Assembly (NCBI GenBank): GCA_015658775.1
Contig: DQOF01000069.1
Span: 1-34,364, forward strand
Length of the DNA stretch: 34,364 nt
Origin: Acidimicrobiia bacterium
Lineage (GTDB): Bacteria > Actinomycetota > Acidimicrobiia > Acidimicrobiales > MedAcidi-G1
Direction of reading: 5' to 3'
Position numbers and translations under genes: made by a program. The notes beneath the pieces were generated by a model. That model ran no database searches. It was not told the DNA's origin and saw only the letters and a program-made list of their open reading frames with translations. Positions 4,411 to 23,518 of this stretch are shown here, in pieces (the stretch's first letter is position 1; each line of letters begins with the position of its first letter).

Positions 4411-4485
4411 GCACGCATCGGTCGGAGCACATGGCGGCGCCAGTACGCTTGCCCCCCGCACCCCTCACCCGTGGGGGGTCGGCAC

Positions 4486-4558
4486 GCCCGTGTAGCTCAG
4501 TCGGAAGAGCGGCTCACTCGTAATGAGCAGGTCCGGGGTTCGATTCCCCGCGCGGGCT
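4486..4558 (+). tRNA. tRNA-Thr (anticodon CGT)
   Basis: A complete cloverleaf by hand: acceptor GCCCGTG/CGCGGGC (with one G-T pair), D-arm GCTC/GAGC, anticodon stem GCTCA/TGAGC around loop CTCGTAA (anticodon CGT at 4519-4521, reading ACG), and T-arm CGGGG-TTCGATT-CCCCG. The discriminator base is T4558. CCA is not encoded in the DNA, so it would be added post-transcriptionally. Confidence 0.97.
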
Positions 4559-4637
4559 CGTCGGCCCCGTCGTGGCACCGCCGGTGGTTTGTCGTCCCAA
4601 TCGGGGTACAGGTGTCCGGGCCGCCGGTCCCACCTCC

Positions 4638-4643
4638 TAGGAT
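4638..4643 (+). promoter_or_regulatory. -10 hexamer TAGGAT before the 44-residue membrane protein
   Basis: TAGGAT lies 7 bases before ATG 4651, the spacing seen at the other putative leaderless starts in this window. The ATG at 4642 overlaps the hexamer, so 4651 is preferred. Confidence 0.55.
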
Positions 4644-4650
4644 GGCCGTC

Positions 4651-4785
4651 ATGAGTGTCCTCGCCGGCGTCATCTGGCACTACTGGTTGGCAGTACCCCT
4701 CGTGGGTGGTGGCATAGCCCTCTGCGTCTCCACCGTGGTCGGGTACCTGCAGAAGGTGTCGTCCACCCGCTATCCCAAGCGCTGA
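4651..4785 (+). CDS. small single-pass membrane protein (44 residues)
   Basis: A short gene coding for 44 residues: an N-terminal MSVLAGVIWHYWLAVPLV, a continuous hydrophobic stretch to about residue 34, and a basic tail ending SSTRYPKR. This pattern suggests one transmembrane helix with a positively charged cytosolic C-terminus. Support for its being real: a TAGGAT hexamer at the leaderless distance, codons ending in G/C, and a stop 53 bases before the metalloprotease start. Comparable tiny aromatic/basic membrane proteins occur in actinobacterial genomes, but I cannot name a family or function. It may be co-transcribed with the metalloprotease and tilS genes. Confidence 0.6.
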   Translation: MSVLAGVIWHYWLAVPLVGGGIALCVSTVVGYLQKVSSTRYPKR

Positions 4786-4838
4786 CGGCCTCACGTTGCG
4801 GTCGGTGGGCCGGCCCATGTCCCGCATGTAACCTCGCC

Positions 4839-5924
4839 GTGAGCCCGCCCGAGACCCCTCCATCCGCTGTCGACTGGGCGCTGGCCGAGCGCGTGGCGGT
4901 CCGGATCGGCGACAGGGCCCCCTTCAGCGGTGCACACCACCTCGACGGGCTGACAGCCGAGTTCGACGAACACACCGCGTTGGCCGAGGGGCTGGTCGCG
5001 GAGACCACGGGGCTCCGCTCGCTCCACGGCGAGGCCCGGGCGCGGGTAGTCGGCCGGAGCGACTGGATACGGGCGAACCTGGCCTCGTTGCAGCGTCTGC
5101 TGCGACCCCTGTTCGAGAAGATGGCAGAACGACCGGCCACGGCGTTCACGCCGTTGGCGGCCGCCGCCGCCGGCACCGAGCTGGGCGCGGTGCTGGGATG
5201 GATGTCCACACGGGTGCTCGGCCAGTACGACCTGCTGGTGCTCGAGGACGAGGCGGCCGAGGACCAGGACCTCGTCTACTACGTGGGTCCGAACCTCGTG
5301 GCCCTGGAGCGCCGCTACGCCTTCGATCCCTGCCACTTCCACCTATGGCTGGCGCTCCACGAGGTGACCCACCGGGCCCAGTTCACGGGCGTGGCGTGGA
5401 TGAGGGAGCACTACCTGGGCCTCGTGGCATCCCTGCTGGAGGACGCCGAACCCGAACAGGTGAACATCCTGGAGTCGCTGCGGGAGTTGGCCGCCCGGCG
5501 GCGGAGCGGAACCGACAGGGCCGACGGGGGTGTCATGGGCATGGTTGCCACACCCCGGCAGCAGGAGGTGCTCGACAACATTGCAAGCCTAATGAGCCTA
5601 CTGGAGGGTCATGGCGACGTCACCATGGACCGCGCCGGTCGCGGGATCGTCGTTGGTGCGGACCGGTTCGCCAGGGTCCTGCGCGACCGCCGCCGGTCGG
5701 CGACCGGTGTGGCGCGCATTCTCCAGAAGATCGTCGGCCTTGAGGCCAAGTTGGCCCAGTACGCCCGGGGCGAGGCCTTCATCGGAGTGGTCGAGGCAGC
5801 GGGCGGACCCGCACTCCTGAACAGGGCTTGGGAAGACCCAGGCCACCTGCCGAACCTCGGTGAGATCAACGACCCGGCCCTGTGGGTCGCCCGGATGGAG
5901 TCCACGGCCCTGGCGGTCCCATGA
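4839..5924 (+). CDS. zinc-dependent metalloprotease, F420-biosynthesis-associated family (DUF2342/TIGR03624-like)
   Basis: A 361-residue protein whose zinc-binding HEVTH (H174, E175, H178) sits in LALHEVTHRAQF, the zincin HExxH signature. The surrounding text (YYVGPNLVALERRYAF before it, WMREHYLGLV after it) matches the actinobacterial DUF2342 family. That family co-occurs with F420 users and lies immediately upstream of tilS in many Actinomycetota. The substrate is unknown. There is no signal peptide, so it is cytosolic. The GTG at 4839 gives the normal family N-terminus; its last bases overlap tilS as ATGA (5921-5924), implying translational coupling. Confidence 0.9.
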   Translation: MSPPETPPSAVDWALAERVAVRIGDRAPFSGAHHLDGLTAEFDEHTALAEGLVAETTGLRSLHGEARARVVGRSDWIRANLASLQRLLRPLFEKMAERPATAFTPLAAAAAGTELGAVLGWMSTRVLGQYDLLVLEDEAAEDQDLVYYVGPNLVALERRYAFDPCHFHLWLALHEVTHRAQFTGVAWMREHYLGLVASLLEDAEPEQVNILESLRELAARRRSGTDRADGGVMGMVATPRQQEVLDNIASLMSLLEGHGDVTMDRAGRGIVVGADRFARVLRDRRRSATGVARILQKIVGLEAKLAQYARGEAFIGVVEAAGGPALLNRAWEDPGHLPNLGEINDPALWVARMESTALAVP

Positions 5925-17704: not shown

Positions 17705-20263
17705 TTGTTCGAGCGGTTCACCGACAGGGCCCGACGGGTCGTTGTGTTGGCGCAGGAAGAGGCGCGCCTCCTGAACCACAACTACATCGGAACCGAGCAC
17801 ATCCTGCTCGGCCTCATCCACGAGGGCGAGGGAGTGGCTGCGAAGGCCCTCGAGTCGCTGGGCATCTCGCTGGAGGCGGTACGCAGCCAGGTCGAGGAGT
17901 TGATAGGCCAGGGCGGCAGTTCGCCGAGTGGGCACATCCCGTTCACTCCGAGGGCCAAGAAGGTGCTGGAGTTGTCGTTGCGCGAGGCACTCCAGCTCGG
18001 GCACAACTACATCGGCACCGAGCACATCCTGCTCGGCCTCATCCGCGAGGGCGAGGGCGTCGCCGCCCAGGTGCTCGTCAAGCTGGGCGCCGACCTGTCA
18101 CGGGTCCGCCAGCAGGTCATCCAGCTCCTCTCCGGCTATTCCGGTTCCGGCGCCCCCTCCGGCGAGAAGGCCGGTGTCACATCCAGGGGCGGCGGTGGTG
18201 ACTCGGCGTCCGGATCGCTGGTCCTGGACCAGTTCGGCAACAACCTCACCAAGGCGGCCCGCGAGAAGAAGCTGGACCCGGTCATCGGCCGCCAACGCGA
18301 GACCGAGCGGGTCATGCAGGTGCTGTCCCGCCGCACCAAGAACAACCCGGTCCTGATCGGGGAGTCCGGCGTCGGCAAGACGGCCATCGTCGAGGGCCTG
18401 GCCCAGATGATCGCCAACGACGAGGTGCCCGAGACCATCGCCGGCAAGCAGGTCTACACCCTCGACCTGGGGGCCCTCGTCGCCGGCAGCCGGTACCGCG
18501 GCGACTTCGAGGAACGCCTCAAGAAGGTCCTCAAGGAGATCAAGACACGGGGCGACATAGTCCTGTTCATCGACGAGATCCACACGCTGGTCGGGGCCGG
18601 TGCGGCAGAGGGCGCCATCGACGCTGCTTCCATTCTGAAGCCCATGCTGGCGCGAGGCGAGCTTCAGACGATCGGCGCCACGACCCTCGACGAGTACCGC
18701 AAGCACTTCGAGAAGGACGCCGCGCTCGAGCGCCGGTTCCAGCCGATCAGGGTGGATGAACCCACGGTCGCCCACACGATCGAGATCCTGAAGGGCATCC
18801 GCGAGCGGTACGAGACCCACCACAGGGTCACCATCACCGATCAGGCACTGGTGGCGGCGGCCAACCTCGCCGACCGCTACATCACCGACCGCCACCTTCC
18901 CGACAAGGCCATCGACCTGATCGACGAAGCCGGCTCGCGGCTGCGGATCAAGCGGATGCACACGCCCGAGGACCTGCGGGAACTCGAGTCTTCGCTGAAC
19001 GAGATCGTGCTCCGCAAGAAGGCCGCCGTCGAGTCCCAGGACTTCGAGGAGGCCGGCCGCCTGCGTGACCAGGAGAAGGAACTCCTCACCAAGAAGGAGG
19101 CCAAGGAGTCCGAGATCAGGTCCTCGGGCGTCGACCTGTTCGACGAGGTCGACGAAGAGGCGATCGCCGAGGTGCTATCGGTCTGGACCGGCATCCCCGT
19201 GTACAAGCTCACCGAGGAGGAGACCCAGAAACTCCTCCACATGGAGGACGAGTTGCACAAGCGGGTCATCGGCCAGGAGGACGCCATCAAGGCTGTCAGC
19301 CAGGCCATCCGCCGCACCCGCGCCGGCCTGAAGGACCCCAAGCGGCCGTCAGGATCGTTCGTCTTCCTCGGGCCCTCCGGCGTCGGCAAGACAGAGTTGG
19401 CCAAGACCCTGGCCGAGTTCCTGTTCGGCGACGAGGACGCCCTCATCGCCCTCGACATGTCCGAGTACATGGAGAAGCACACCGTCAGCCGGCTCGTAGG
19501 CTCGCCTCCCGGCTACGTCGGCTACGACGAGGGCGGCCAGTTGACCGAGGCGGTCCGCCGGCGTCCCTTCTCCGTGGTGCTGTTCGACGAGGTCGAGAAG
19601 GCCCACCCCGACGTCTTCAACACCCTGCTCCAGATCCTGGAGGAGGGCAGGCTCACCGATGCGCAGGGCCGCACCGTCGACTTCCGCAACACGGTCCTTA
19701 TCATGACGTCGAACCTCGGTACAGCCGACCTGCGCAAGGCCAACCTGGGGTTCGCCAAGGCCGACGAGGCCGTCTCCTACGAGCGGATGAAGGTCAAGGT
19801 CCAGGACGCCCTGAAGGCCCACTTCAAGCCGGAGTTCCTGAACCGGATCGACGACACGATCGTGTTCCACGAACTGACGGTGTCCGAGGTGACCCGGATC
19901 GTCGACCTCATGATCCGCCGGATCTCGACCCAGTTGGCCGGACAGGGCCTGGGCTTCGAGCTCACCGATGCCGCCAAGGAATTCCTGGCCCGCGAGGGCT
20001 ACGACCCGACGATGGGCGCCAGGCCGTTGCGCCGCGCGATCCAGCGCCTGGTCGAGGACCCGCTCAGCGAGCGGCTGCTCAACAAGGAGTTCACGGCAGG
20101 TGAGATCATCGTCGTCGACATCGACCAGGCTGACGGTGACGGGACCGCCGACGCCGATAGGGCCGACAAGGCCGAGGGTGACGGCGCTGCGACGCTGGTC
20201 TTCCGTGCCATCGCAGGCTTCGAGCCGCCTACCGTCGAGATGGCGGTCGAGGCCGCCGACTAG
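17705..20263 (+). CDS. clpC: ClpC AAA+ chaperone/protease ATPase subunit
   Basis: An 852-residue Hsp100 unfoldase that feeds substrates to ClpP. Order: two Clp-N repeats (residues 1-150; [15 protein letters not shown] and [15 protein letters not shown]), AAA-1 with [15 protein letters not shown] (about 219) and [14 protein letters not shown], a UVR-type coiled middle ([14 protein letters not shown], about 430-445), and AAA-2 with [18 protein letters not shown] (about 556) and [16 protein letters not shown]. It also has the ClpP-docking loop LGF in ANLGFAK (about 681), the small D2 domain, and an acidic tail ending AVEAAD. The TTG start is unusual but secured by the family N-terminus and AGGAGG. 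Position after lysS matches mycobacteria; the lsr2 gene found between them there is absent. Confidence 0.98.
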
Positions 20264-20293
20264 CCATCTGCTGACGGGCCATCTGCTGACGGG
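20264..20293 (+). repeat. tandem duplication of a 15-bp unit after clpC
   Basis: CCATCTGCTGACGGG occurs twice in perfect tandem (20264-20278 and 20279-20293), starting directly after the clpC TAG stop and running toward the promoter of the next gene. No T-run follows it, so a terminator role is not supported. Confidence 0.9.
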
Positions 20294-20315: not shown

Positions 20316-20321
20316 TAACGT
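20316..20321 (+). promoter_or_regulatory. -10 hexamer TAACGT of the lipoprotein-HAD gene
   Basis: TAACGT is followed by 7 bases and ATG 20329. The spacing matches the other putative leaderless starts and favours ATG 20329 over the upstream GTG 20308. Confidence 0.5.
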
Positions 20322-20328
20322 CCTGCCC

Positions 20329-21864
20329 ATGACTCACCCGGTGTCCCGACCCGTGGCCCGTCCGGTGGGTGGCCCGGCGAGGCTGCTGCCCGCCCTCGTG
20401 GGCCTGGTCGTGCTCCTCTCGGCATGCAGGGCCACCTCCACGGTGTCGATCCATGTGGCCGAGGACGGTTCGGGCCTTGTGGAGGTGGCGGTGGTGCTGG
20501 ACGACGAGGCTGTCGAGGCGGTCGGCGGAGTCGACCACCAGATTCGCCTCGACGACCTGTCAGACGCCGGTTGGGAGGTGGACGGCCCGAGCCGGTCCGA
20601 CCACGATGGCCTCACGACCGTCACCGCCTCGAAGCCCTTTGAGGTACCCGACCGGTTGCCCCCCATCCTGGGCGAGATAGCCGGTCCCAGGGTGTTCGAC
20701 GGCATGGTCCTCGTGCGCGAGCGCACGTTCGCCAGGACGACATGGCGCCTGGAGGGCCTCGTCGACCTCTCCGCCGGGCTGGCCCTGTTCAGCGACCCGG
20801 ACCTCGCCGTCACCCTGTCCGGCCTCCCGCTGGGCCGCACGTCGGCCGAACTGGCGGCGCTGGCAGGGTGCGAGACCGGGTGCGATCCTGCCGATTCGTT
20901 CAGCATGGACCTCGTCGTGACGATGCCGGGTGAGGTGGTCGGCAACACGGACCTGGTCGACTCCGCCACCGCACGGTGGACCATCGACCTGGGTGGGCGG
21001 ACACCGACCGTCGTGGAACTCTCGGGGTCTGTCGTGGACCGGGCCCCCCGGTTGTGGCTGGGCGTCGCGTTCGTGTCGGCGGCGCTGCTTCTGCTGGTGA
21101 TGGTGTTCCAGGTGGCACGGCGACTTCTCGGTCACCACCCGGGCCCCCGGCGAGACAGACATGCCCCGGCTCCGGTTCGCAGAAGCAGGCGGGCGACGGA
21201 GATCGTCGAGCAGACGCCGGACACCCGGGTGGAACCGGAGCCCCGACGGCTGGAACTGGTCGTGCTGGGAGGCGTGGGCGTCGTGTGGGACGGCGGCACG
21301 GACCCGGAGGGACTCCTGGTCTCGTTCGTGAGGGCGAGGAGAGGCATCGCGGACTCCCGTGAGGTGGCCGACCGGTATCGGGCAGCCAGCCTCGGACAGG
21401 TGTCGTCGGGCGAGTTCTGGGCCTCGGTAGGCGTCGAGGGCGACCCGGACGAGATCGACGAGGAGTACCTGGCAGGTGTACGGCTGAGGCCCGATGTGAT
21501 GGCCTTCCTGGAGCAGATGGCCGAGCGGGAGCTGACCGTGGCCTGCCTCACCAACGCCGTGCTGCCGTGGACGAAGCTGCTCCGGGCGCGGTTCGACCTG
21601 GACAGGATGATCGGGCACTGGGTGGTCAGTGGCGAGATCGGTGCCCGCAAGCCCGGCCAGGCGATGTTCGAGGCGCTGAGGCGCATGTCGGACGTGACCT
21701 TCCGGAACATGCTGCTCATCGACTCTGAGCAGTCGGCGCTGGAGGCCGCACGCGGCATGGGGATGTCCACCGTGCTCATGCGCGGTACGGCCCTGATCCC
21801 CGAGGGCTTCGCCCATCCGACCATCGACGGGTTCGCCGGCCTGTTCCGGCAGACCGGGGGCTAG
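20329..21864 (+). CDS. lipoprotein (LppM-like) fused through a TM helix to a degenerate HAD domain
   Basis: A 511-residue protein in three parts. Residues 1-33 are a lipoprotein signal: basic start, hydrophobic LLPALVGLVVLL, lipobox LSAC with Cys33. Residues 34-240 form an extracytoplasmic beta-rich domain (VSIHVAEDGSGLVEVAVVLDD...) like the LppM/DUF3153 family. Residues about 242-263 (LWLGVAFVSAALLLLVMVFQ) are a transmembrane helix followed by a basic linker. Residues about 305-505 read as a HAD-family fold: CLTNAV (motif II, T408), GARKPGQAMFEAL (motif III, K441) and LLIDSEQSALEAARGMG (motif IV, D465 then Ser instead of Asp). Motif I is LVVLGGVGVVWDG with no placeable nucleophilic Asp, so catalysis is unlikely. 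The membrane topology (outside sensor, inside pseudo-enzyme) suggests signalling; that is inference. Confidence 0.75.
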   Translation: MTHPVSRPVARPVGGPARLLPALVGLVVLLSACRATSTVSIHVAEDGSGLVEVAVVLDDEAVEAVGGVDHQIRLDDLSDAGWEVDGPSRSDHDGLTTVTASKPFEVPDRLPPILGEIAGPRVFDGMVLVRERTFARTTWRLEGLVDLSAGLALFSDPDLAVTLSGLPLGRTSAELAALAGCETGCDPADSFSMDLVVTMPGEVVGNTDLVDSATARWTIDLGGRTPTVVELSGSVVDRAPRLWLGVAFVSAALLLLVMVFQVARRLLGHHPGPRRDRHAPAPVRRSRRATEIVEQTPDTRVEPEPRRLELVVLGGVGVVWDGGTDPEGLLVSFVRARRGIADSREVADRYRAASLGQVSSGEFWASVGVEGDPDEIDEEYLAGVRLRPDVMAFLEQMAERELTVACLTNAVLPWTKLLRARFDLDRMIGHWVVSGEIGARKPGQAMFEALRRMSDVTFRNMLLIDSEQSALEAARGMGMSTVLMRGTALIPEGFAHPTIDGFAGLFRQTGG

Positions 21865-21930: not shown

Positions 21931-21936
21931 TACGGT
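21931..21936 (+). promoter_or_regulatory. -10 hexamer TACGGT of radA
   Basis: TACGGT followed by 7 bases and ATG 21944, a leaderless arrangement without a Shine-Dalgarno sequence. Confidence 0.5.
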
Positions 21937-21943
21937 CTGCACC

Positions 21944-23518
21944 ATGTCGACGCAGCCGGAAACGACCACGACCGGGCCTGCCTCAGTAGAGCCCTCCTCC
22001 AGAGAGCCTATGACCGGTGAACCGACCTCCCCGGTGAGAGCCCCCGGCCACCGGGACCCGGTGGCACACGACCCACCGGTCGGGGCGCCCCCTCACATTC
22101 TGCCCCGAGGCATGCTGCCCCACCGAAGGACGGGACGATCTGCCTTCGTCTGTGCCGAGTGTGGCGCCTCGCAGCCGAAATGGGTGGGGCGTTGCCCCGG
22201 ATGCGGTGAATGGAACACGTTGGCCGAGGCGTCGGCGGGCGGCGCACCGTCGGCCGACACGGGTGAGGCCGTGAGGATCACCGGGGTGTCCACCGCGTCC
22301 TTCGCCGCGGTTCCCACGGGGGTGGGCGAGCTGGACCGTGCGCTGGGGGGCGGCCTCGTACCCGGTTCGGTGACGCTGCTGGGCGGAGAGCCGGGAATCG
22401 GCAAGTCCACGCTGACCCTCCAGTTGGCCGCTGAGAAGGTGCGCCGGGGCGGCTGTGCGCTGTTGGCCAGTGCCGAGGAGTCGCCGGCGCAGGTGAGGGG
22501 CCGGGCCGAACGGCTGGGTGCGCTCCACGACGACCTGTGGCTCACGGGCGAGACGTCGGTGGAGTCGATCATCGGCCTCCTCGACCGCATCCGACCCGAC
22601 CTGCTCATCGTGGACTCTATCCAGACTGTGCATGTCGACGGATCGGGAACCGCGTCGACTGCGGCGGCTCCGGGGAGTACCGCCCAGGTCCGGGCATGCG
22701 CCCATCGTCTGGTCGCCGAGGCGAAGGTGCGGGGCGTGGCGATCATCCTGGTGGGGCACCTCGTGAAGGACGGCTCCCTGGCAGGCCCCAAGGTGCTCGA
22801 GCACGCCGTCGACACGGTGGTCGAGCTGACCGGCGACCGTCACCACTCACTTCGGTTCCTCAGGGTCGTGAAGCACCGGTTCGGACCGACCGACGAGCTC
22901 GGCCTGTTCGAGATGGCGGGCGACGGCCTCAGGTCGGTCGACGATCCCAGCCGGCTGTTCCTCGCCGACAGGGCTGCCGACGTGGCCGGCTCCGTGGTGC
23001 TGCCCGCCATGGTCGGGCACCGACCGCTGCTGGTCGAGTTGCAGGCACTGCTGGTGAGGGCCACCACGCCGCACCCGAGGCGGTCGTCGCAGGGCGTCGA
23101 TTCCCGGCGCCTGGCGCTGCTCCTGGCGGTCCTCGAACGGCGCGCCTGCCTGGACCTGGGCCAACTCGACGTCTACGTCACGGCGGTCGGCGGGGTGCAG
23201 GTGACCGAGCCCGGTGCGGACCTGCCGCTGGCACTGGCTGTGGCCTCGGCGGTCACGAACAGATGTCTGGGTGCCGATGTCGTGGCATGCGGAGAGGTGG
23301 GCCTGGGAGGCGAGGTGCGTCAGGTGGCGGGCCTCGAGCGGCGGCTGAACGAGGCCCACCGGCTTGGCTTCAGACGGGCGATCCTGCCCGGGTCGGCACC
23401 CGAACCCCCAGAGAGCATGTCGGCGATGAGGGTCCGGACGCTAGCCGAGGCGGTCGCCGTGGCGGGGCTGCTTCCCGAGCCGATACAGGGGGCACGCCCG
23501 TCGGACCCCTTCCGTTAG
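21944..23518 (+). CDS. radA: DNA repair protein RadA/Sms
   Basis: A 524-residue RecA-like branch-migration helicase of recombinational repair. After a polar Pro/Thr-rich extension of about 60 residues comes the C4 zinc finger CAECGASQPKWVGRCPGCGEW, the RecA core with Walker A GEPGIGKST (about 149-157), Walker B LLIVDSIQTVH, and the Lon-protease-like C-terminal domain (GVQVTEPGADLPLALAVASA, GEVGLGGEVRQV). The RadA-specific KNRFG motif reads KHRFG here (310-314); Lys and Arg are kept, Asn is His. Its TAG stop (23516-23518) overlaps the -10 hexamer of the next gene. Confidence 0.95.
   Translation: MSTQPETTTTGPASVEPSSREPMTGEPTSPVRAPGHRDPVAHDPPVGAPPHILPRGMLPHRRTGRSAFVCAECGASQPKWVGRCPGCGEWNTLAEASAGGAPSADTGEAVRITGVSTASFAAVPTGVGELDRALGGGLVPGSVTLLGGEPGIGKSTLTLQLAAEKVRRGGCALLASAEESPAQVRGRAERLGALHDDLWLTGETSVESIIGLLDRIRPDLLIVDSIQTVHVDGSGTASTAAAPGSTAQVRACAHRLVAEAKVRGVAIILVGHLVKDGSLAGPKVLEHAVDTVVELTGDRHHSLRFLRVVKHRFGPTDELGLFEMAGDGLRSVDDPSRLFLADRAADVAGSVVLPAMVGHRPLLVELQALLVRATTPHPRRSSQGVDSRRLALLLAVLERRACLDLGQLDVYVTAVGGVQVTEPGADLPLALAVASAVTNRCLGADVVACGEVGLGGEVRQVAGLERRLNEAHRLGFRRAILPGSAPEPPESMSAMRVRTLAEAVAVAGLLPEPIQGARPSDPFR

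Follow-up and report, generated by a model that had tools for sequence, protein, structure and literature searches.

An LppM-like lipoprotein joined through a transmembrane helix to a HAD domain without the motif I aspartate in a family of marine Acidimicrobiales

Results

The DNA analysed here, which we call the window, is a stretch of 34,364 nucleotides from an Acidimicrobiia bacterium. Between clpC (17705-20263) and radA (21944-23518), a single open reading frame on the forward strand (20329-21864) encodes a protein of 511 amino acids plus stop, in which an LppM-like lipoprotein, a transmembrane helix and a pseudo-HAD domain follow one another; the coordinates of its parts given below are on the same strand. 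A -10-like hexamer, TAACGT (20316-20321), lies 7 nt 5' of the ATG at 20329, and TAGCGT-N7-ATG (or N8) is found at the equivalent site in six of six same-genus copies as well as in members of several other genera of the family, at loci L008, L010, L012, L014, L016 and L022. Because of this conserved leaderless pattern, we place the start at ATG 20329 and not at the upstream GTG 20308. A generic scan for sigma-70-type promoters upstream of the gene gave no match; the pattern was recognised by comparing relatives, and it fits a candidate leaderless promoter. At the level of the pattern, this agrees with an earlier reading made from the sequence alone, which had placed the gene between clpC and radA and given it a leaderless promoter of its own. 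The same layout is seen at radA, where the -10-like hexamer TACGGT lies exactly 7 nt 5' of the ATG (21931-21946). Immediately 3' of the clpC stop, the 15-nt unit GCCATCTGCTGACGG stands twice in perfect tandem (20263-20292). The two neighbours suggest no pathway for the protein.

The protein starts with a lipoprotein signal peptide (residues 1-32; 20329-20424), marked by a hydropathy peak and ending in LSA directly before the lipobox cysteine, Cys33 (20425-20427), a position that is Cys in 70 of 70 homologues. The single transmembrane helix (residues 242-263; 21052-21117) reaches Kyte-Doolittle values of up to 2.65 and is helical in both structural models. It is followed by a basic linker (21118-21243), predicted to be disordered and cytosolic, with 10 Lys and Arg against 5 Asp and Glu within 40 residues; model residues 262-279 and 281-284 have pLDDT values under 50. 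Genes for lipoprotein processing were found in nearly all the genomes searched for them (lgt in 21 of 21, lspA in 20 of 21). Nearly every family member (41 of 42) has exactly two ectodomain cysteines besides Cys33, and 27 of 28 homologues outside the family have no such further Cys; a disulphide on the outer side of the membrane would account for this family-specific pair. Based on the lipobox, the presence of lgt and lspA, the putatively extracellular Cys pair and the basic cytosolic side, we infer that residues 33-241 lie outside the membrane and the C-terminal domain inside.

The extracytoplasmic domain (residues 33-241; 20425-21051), in which the additional cysteines are Cys181 and Cys185, was modelled with AF2 from 60 homologues at a pLDDT of 92. 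M. tuberculosis LppM (2NC8) was the only PDB match of this model at E <=0.001 (Foldseek, 8e-9), and the two aligned over 148 residues with a VIA Z of 13.6 and an rmsd of 3.3, the runner-up reaching a Z of 7.4. The Pfam LppM profile (PF21946) gave E values of 0.05-0.19 on the window protein, that is 12-14 bits against a gathering cut-off of 27, and the unfused relative L049 scored above this cut-off with 28.0 bits. Since the whole-genome search with PF21946 gave no match in the window's own genome or in the controls, Pfam alone misses the relationship. When the ectodomain was run against the PDB in a sequence-profile search, this also returned nothing, and it was fold comparison alone that found LppM; DUF3153 (PF11353) had one weak match among 60 members. 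Going by the predicted structure, we take the ectodomain as a divergent LppM domain. LppM of M. tuberculosis likewise carries a membrane helix, at its C-terminal end. The lipobox and the ectodomain fold are also common to LppM (Rv2171, PF21946, PDB 2NC8) and the window protein, which differs by its cytosolic HAD domain, its extra Cys pair, its location between clpC and radA and a low sequence identity of 14-17% in structural alignments.

The C-terminal part of the protein is a pseudo-HAD domain (residues 306-511; 21244-21861). When isolated, it scores 27.7 bits for PF00702 against a gathering threshold of 26.4. In the full-length model (pLDDT 88.5), residues 293-497, which are residues 305-509 of the protein, match many solved HAD structures, the best being 3cnh with a VIA Z of 21.3; the nearest PDB sequence is YihX. 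The domain shares with the HAD-IA phosphatases and nucleotidases (YihX, YjjG/YfnB, 3cnh, BT2542) the fold, the motif II Thr (Thr408; 21550-21552), the motif III Lys (Lys441; 21649-21651) and the first Asp of motif IV. Unlike them, it has no motif I nucleophile, it carries DS instead of DD in motif IV (Asp465-Ser466, in IDSE; 21721-21726) and it is tethered at the membrane to a lipoprotein domain. In a profile-profile alignment with canonical HADs (hhalign, E 1.4e-33), VVLGGVGVV pairs with IWFDFGGVL, which puts Gly314 (21268-21270, in the loop VVLGGVGVVW) at the site of the nucleophilic Asp.

These features are not peculiar to the window. Among 42 aligned members of its family, motif I is Gly in all, the motif III Lys is invariant, the motif II Thr is kept with one Ser, and the first motif IV Asp is kept with one Glu; the DS of motif IV is present in nearly all members of the family. 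The new motif I loop, GGxGVxW, is itself tightly conserved within the family, and so are stretches away from the pocket, namely PEGLLV, ADRYRxASLG and the C-terminal HPxIxxFA. The family alignment holds no invariant Asp in the motif I loop or close by. A misaligned motif I Asp was considered and rejected, as hhalign sets Gly on Asp and the nearby Asp and Glu residues vary within the family.

Thus the two halves proposed from the sequence alone, an LSAC-lipobox lipoprotein of the LppM type and, after a membrane helix, a HAD-like domain lacking the motif I Asp and the second Asp of motif IV while retaining Thr and Lys, are both recovered by sequence comparison and structure prediction, and the loss in motif I withstands the search for an overlooked Asp and is conserved in relatives.

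Named relatives put the window within the marine Acidimicrobiales, near MedAcidi-G1 and MedAcidi-G2B. Matches to the LppM-HAD protein were found in 47 of 47 other genomes searched of the window's family (marine Acidimicrobiales), and in 45 of these the match crosses the junction between lipoprotein and HAD in one open frame. One of the 45 copies (G026) stops at residue 456, its remainder lying on another contig. The copy of G033 (G033:C136:10624-12051) contains one in-frame TAA, which is either a sequencing error or the mark of a broken gene, and in G036 only the HAD part was matched. Within the order, the fused form is present in 11 of the 52 other families sampled, mostly between clpC and radA; in other families, this locus holds a lipoprotein with a helix and without the HAD domain, of about 250-265 amino acids. 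No HAD gene was found beside an unfused lipoprotein at clpC-radA among the loci fetched, so that the fusion, questioned from the outset as a possible product of separate genes or faulty assembly, holds. At L038, an extra HAD-like gene (4465-5181) separates the fused gene from radA and is encoded on the opposite strand. Searches with a one-protein query of samples of 247 genomes of the class and 396 of the phylum yielded full-length fusions inside the order only.

Comparison within the genus shows the highest conservation in the HAD part, at 86% identity (dN 0.091, dS 1.08, dN/dS about 0.084), followed by the ectodomain at 78% (dN 0.159, dS 1.07, dN/dS about 0.15) and by the linker and helix at 67%. 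The substitution ratio of the HAD part indicates strong purifying selection.

Not all fused forms lack the aspartate. About ten species that form a sister clade (L031, 3450-4946, and L111-L119) have the same LppM-TM-HAD chain with the motif I Asp, and in nearly all of them the motifs read DARGVLYD, T/N, K and DD, L116 being a partial exception. Judged on these motifs, the proteins of this clade are candidate active membrane phosphatases. Their motif I also has Arg conserved at position +2. The list of 151 "fused" ORFs from which these motifs were read includes stray RadA rows, and only rows with readable motifs were used. The closest HAD sequences that we found are those of two free-standing proteins from other actinobacteria, L162 (1042-1638) and L163 (4270-4923), with motif spacing equal to that of the window protein; unlike it, they are soluble, have the motif I Asp with motifs II-IV intact and carry no lipoprotein part. 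Both genes lie directly upstream of carB-like genes, and in L162 a carA-like end is also found upstream of the HAD gene. This neighbourhood may hint that the ancestral role had to do with nucleotides.

The fused forms make up one group in the HAD tree (support 84/69), adjacent to L162 and L163, and the family with Gly adjoins the clade that keeps Asp. In other fused lineages, the motif I Asp is replaced by G, N, E, E or H. In five of them (L034, L036, L039, L046 and L047), the rest of the pocket has decayed as well, with the HAD domain retained. On the ClpC+RadA tree, motif I needs a minimum of six state changes, which with Asp as the ancestral state makes for about six independent losses, a provisional count given the weak deep branches. 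The LppM-TM lipoprotein and a catalytic-type HAD were probably fused once, the nucleophile being lost later; this single fusion rests on the HAD tree and is provisional, because the ectodomain and ClpC/RadA trees have poor resolution at depth.

Discussion

The canonical aspartyl-phosphate reaction of HAD enzymes requires the motif I Asp, and for this reason the HAD domain of the window protein is very probably catalytically dead. The protein is probably a sensor or a scaffold across the membrane, not an enzyme. Sequence, structure prediction, conservation and selection agree with the arrangement first read from the letters of the window, a lipid anchor and LppM domain that would sit outside, a helix, and a dead HAD domain that would sit inside. 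The description of this arrangement as a transmembrane signalling device is plausible and a reasonable one to draw, and a scaffold or receptor role of the Tim50 type fits the protein about as well.

The reading that we prefer, and to which we would give nearly an even chance, is that of a receptor or scaffold that engages an envelope component outside and holds a phospho-ligand or partner, uncleaved, in the pseudo-HAD pocket. The LppM domain would sense or bind a lipid or glycolipid of the envelope, by analogy with LppM of M. tuberculosis. On the cytosolic side, the old substrate pocket would hold a small phosphorylated metabolite or a phosphorylated partner without cleaving it, and the protein would thereby couple the state of the envelope to a cytosolic partner, or tether that partner to the membrane. 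The pocket residues are what lead us to prefer this reading, since Thr, Lys and Asp hardly vary, which suggests a phosphate pocket still in use; their conservation may also be structural only. M. tuberculosis LppM has been reported to bind phosphatidyl-myo-inositol mannoside (review PMC6151718). Inositol-1-phosphate synthase is present in 39 of 41 related genomes, which would allow inositol lipids in these hosts and lends weak support to such a ligand.

As to its ancestry, the protein would descend from an LppM-TM lipoprotein fused to a catalytic-type HAD that lost its catalytic residue afterwards. We suggest, tentatively and with some doubt, that one such fusion, with a lipid-binding LppM ectodomain, gave in some lineages (those of the L031 type) a candidate membrane phosphatase, and that the enzyme part turned several times independently into a non-catalytic sensor of phospho-ligands, which became fixed throughout the marine family.

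A somewhat unlikely, still substantial alternative is that the protein is purely a protein scaffold or receptor, the pseudo-HAD domain serving as an interaction surface and the old pocket being empty. A precedent for it, and equally for the receptor of the preferred reading, is fungal Tim50, a membrane-tethered HAD with an imperfect motif I and no phosphatase activity that acts as a receptor (PMC8346121). Tim50 resembles the window protein as a membrane-anchored HAD fold with an imperfect motif I, but it belongs to an unrelated HAD branch (the CTD-phosphatase type), is mitochondrial and has no lipoprotein domain; the comparison is made for the way of working, and homology is claimed no further than the HAD fold. 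The conserved stretches beyond the pocket would suit a binding surface. Furthermore, the five lineages in which most of the pocket decayed and the domain stayed favour a pure scaffold over ligand binding. In the window's own family, however, Thr II, Lys III and Asp IV are almost invariant, and a surface role would not need them.

Two further explanations are each improbable. In one, the protein is still an enzyme with altered chemistry, the GGxG loop standing in place of the aspartyl nucleophile. Tight conservation of the GGxGVxW loop and of the remaining pocket would be expected of such an enzyme, but the canonical mechanism depends on the missing Asp, and its repeated loss in other lineages, which have G, N, E or H instead, looks like a release from catalysis. 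In the other, which we consider no better placed, the ectodomain or the transmembrane segment is cut, releasing the HAD part to the cytosol. The long, disordered linker could accommodate this, and the domain composition of M. tuberculosis LppM is reportedly tied to dual localisation (going by the title of Barthe et al. 2016).

It is very improbable that the protein is a functionless, decaying relic of a fused enzyme: the catalytic Asp was indeed lost several times and the HAD part is absent from other lineages, but the dN/dS of the HAD part is about 0.08 and it is retained in all 47 small marine genomes searched. An assembly or frame error joining two genes is hardly credible, as one frame runs through dozens of genomes that were assembled independently, named MAGs and single cells among them, and no split form adjoins clpC or radA among the fetched loci.

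Links of LppM with envelope lipids and phagosome behaviour have been described in M. tuberculosis. We did not find a description of a cytosolic output for LppM in the literature, and our searches there on HAD pseudophosphatases of bacteria and on LppM together with HAD gave nothing relevant to this architecture, which is a new combination of known parts. The attachment of a cytosolic domain to LppM in this lineage gives a starting point for learning what is sensed by the LppM fold. Furthermore, intact and dead HAD sites within the same architecture in related species provide a natural comparison of enzyme and pseudoenzyme, and this pair sits in a one-pass membrane protein that has been retained in small marine genomes. 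In conclusion, if the history that we tentatively suggest above is true, these proteins would represent a bacterial family of transmembrane pseudoenzyme receptors.
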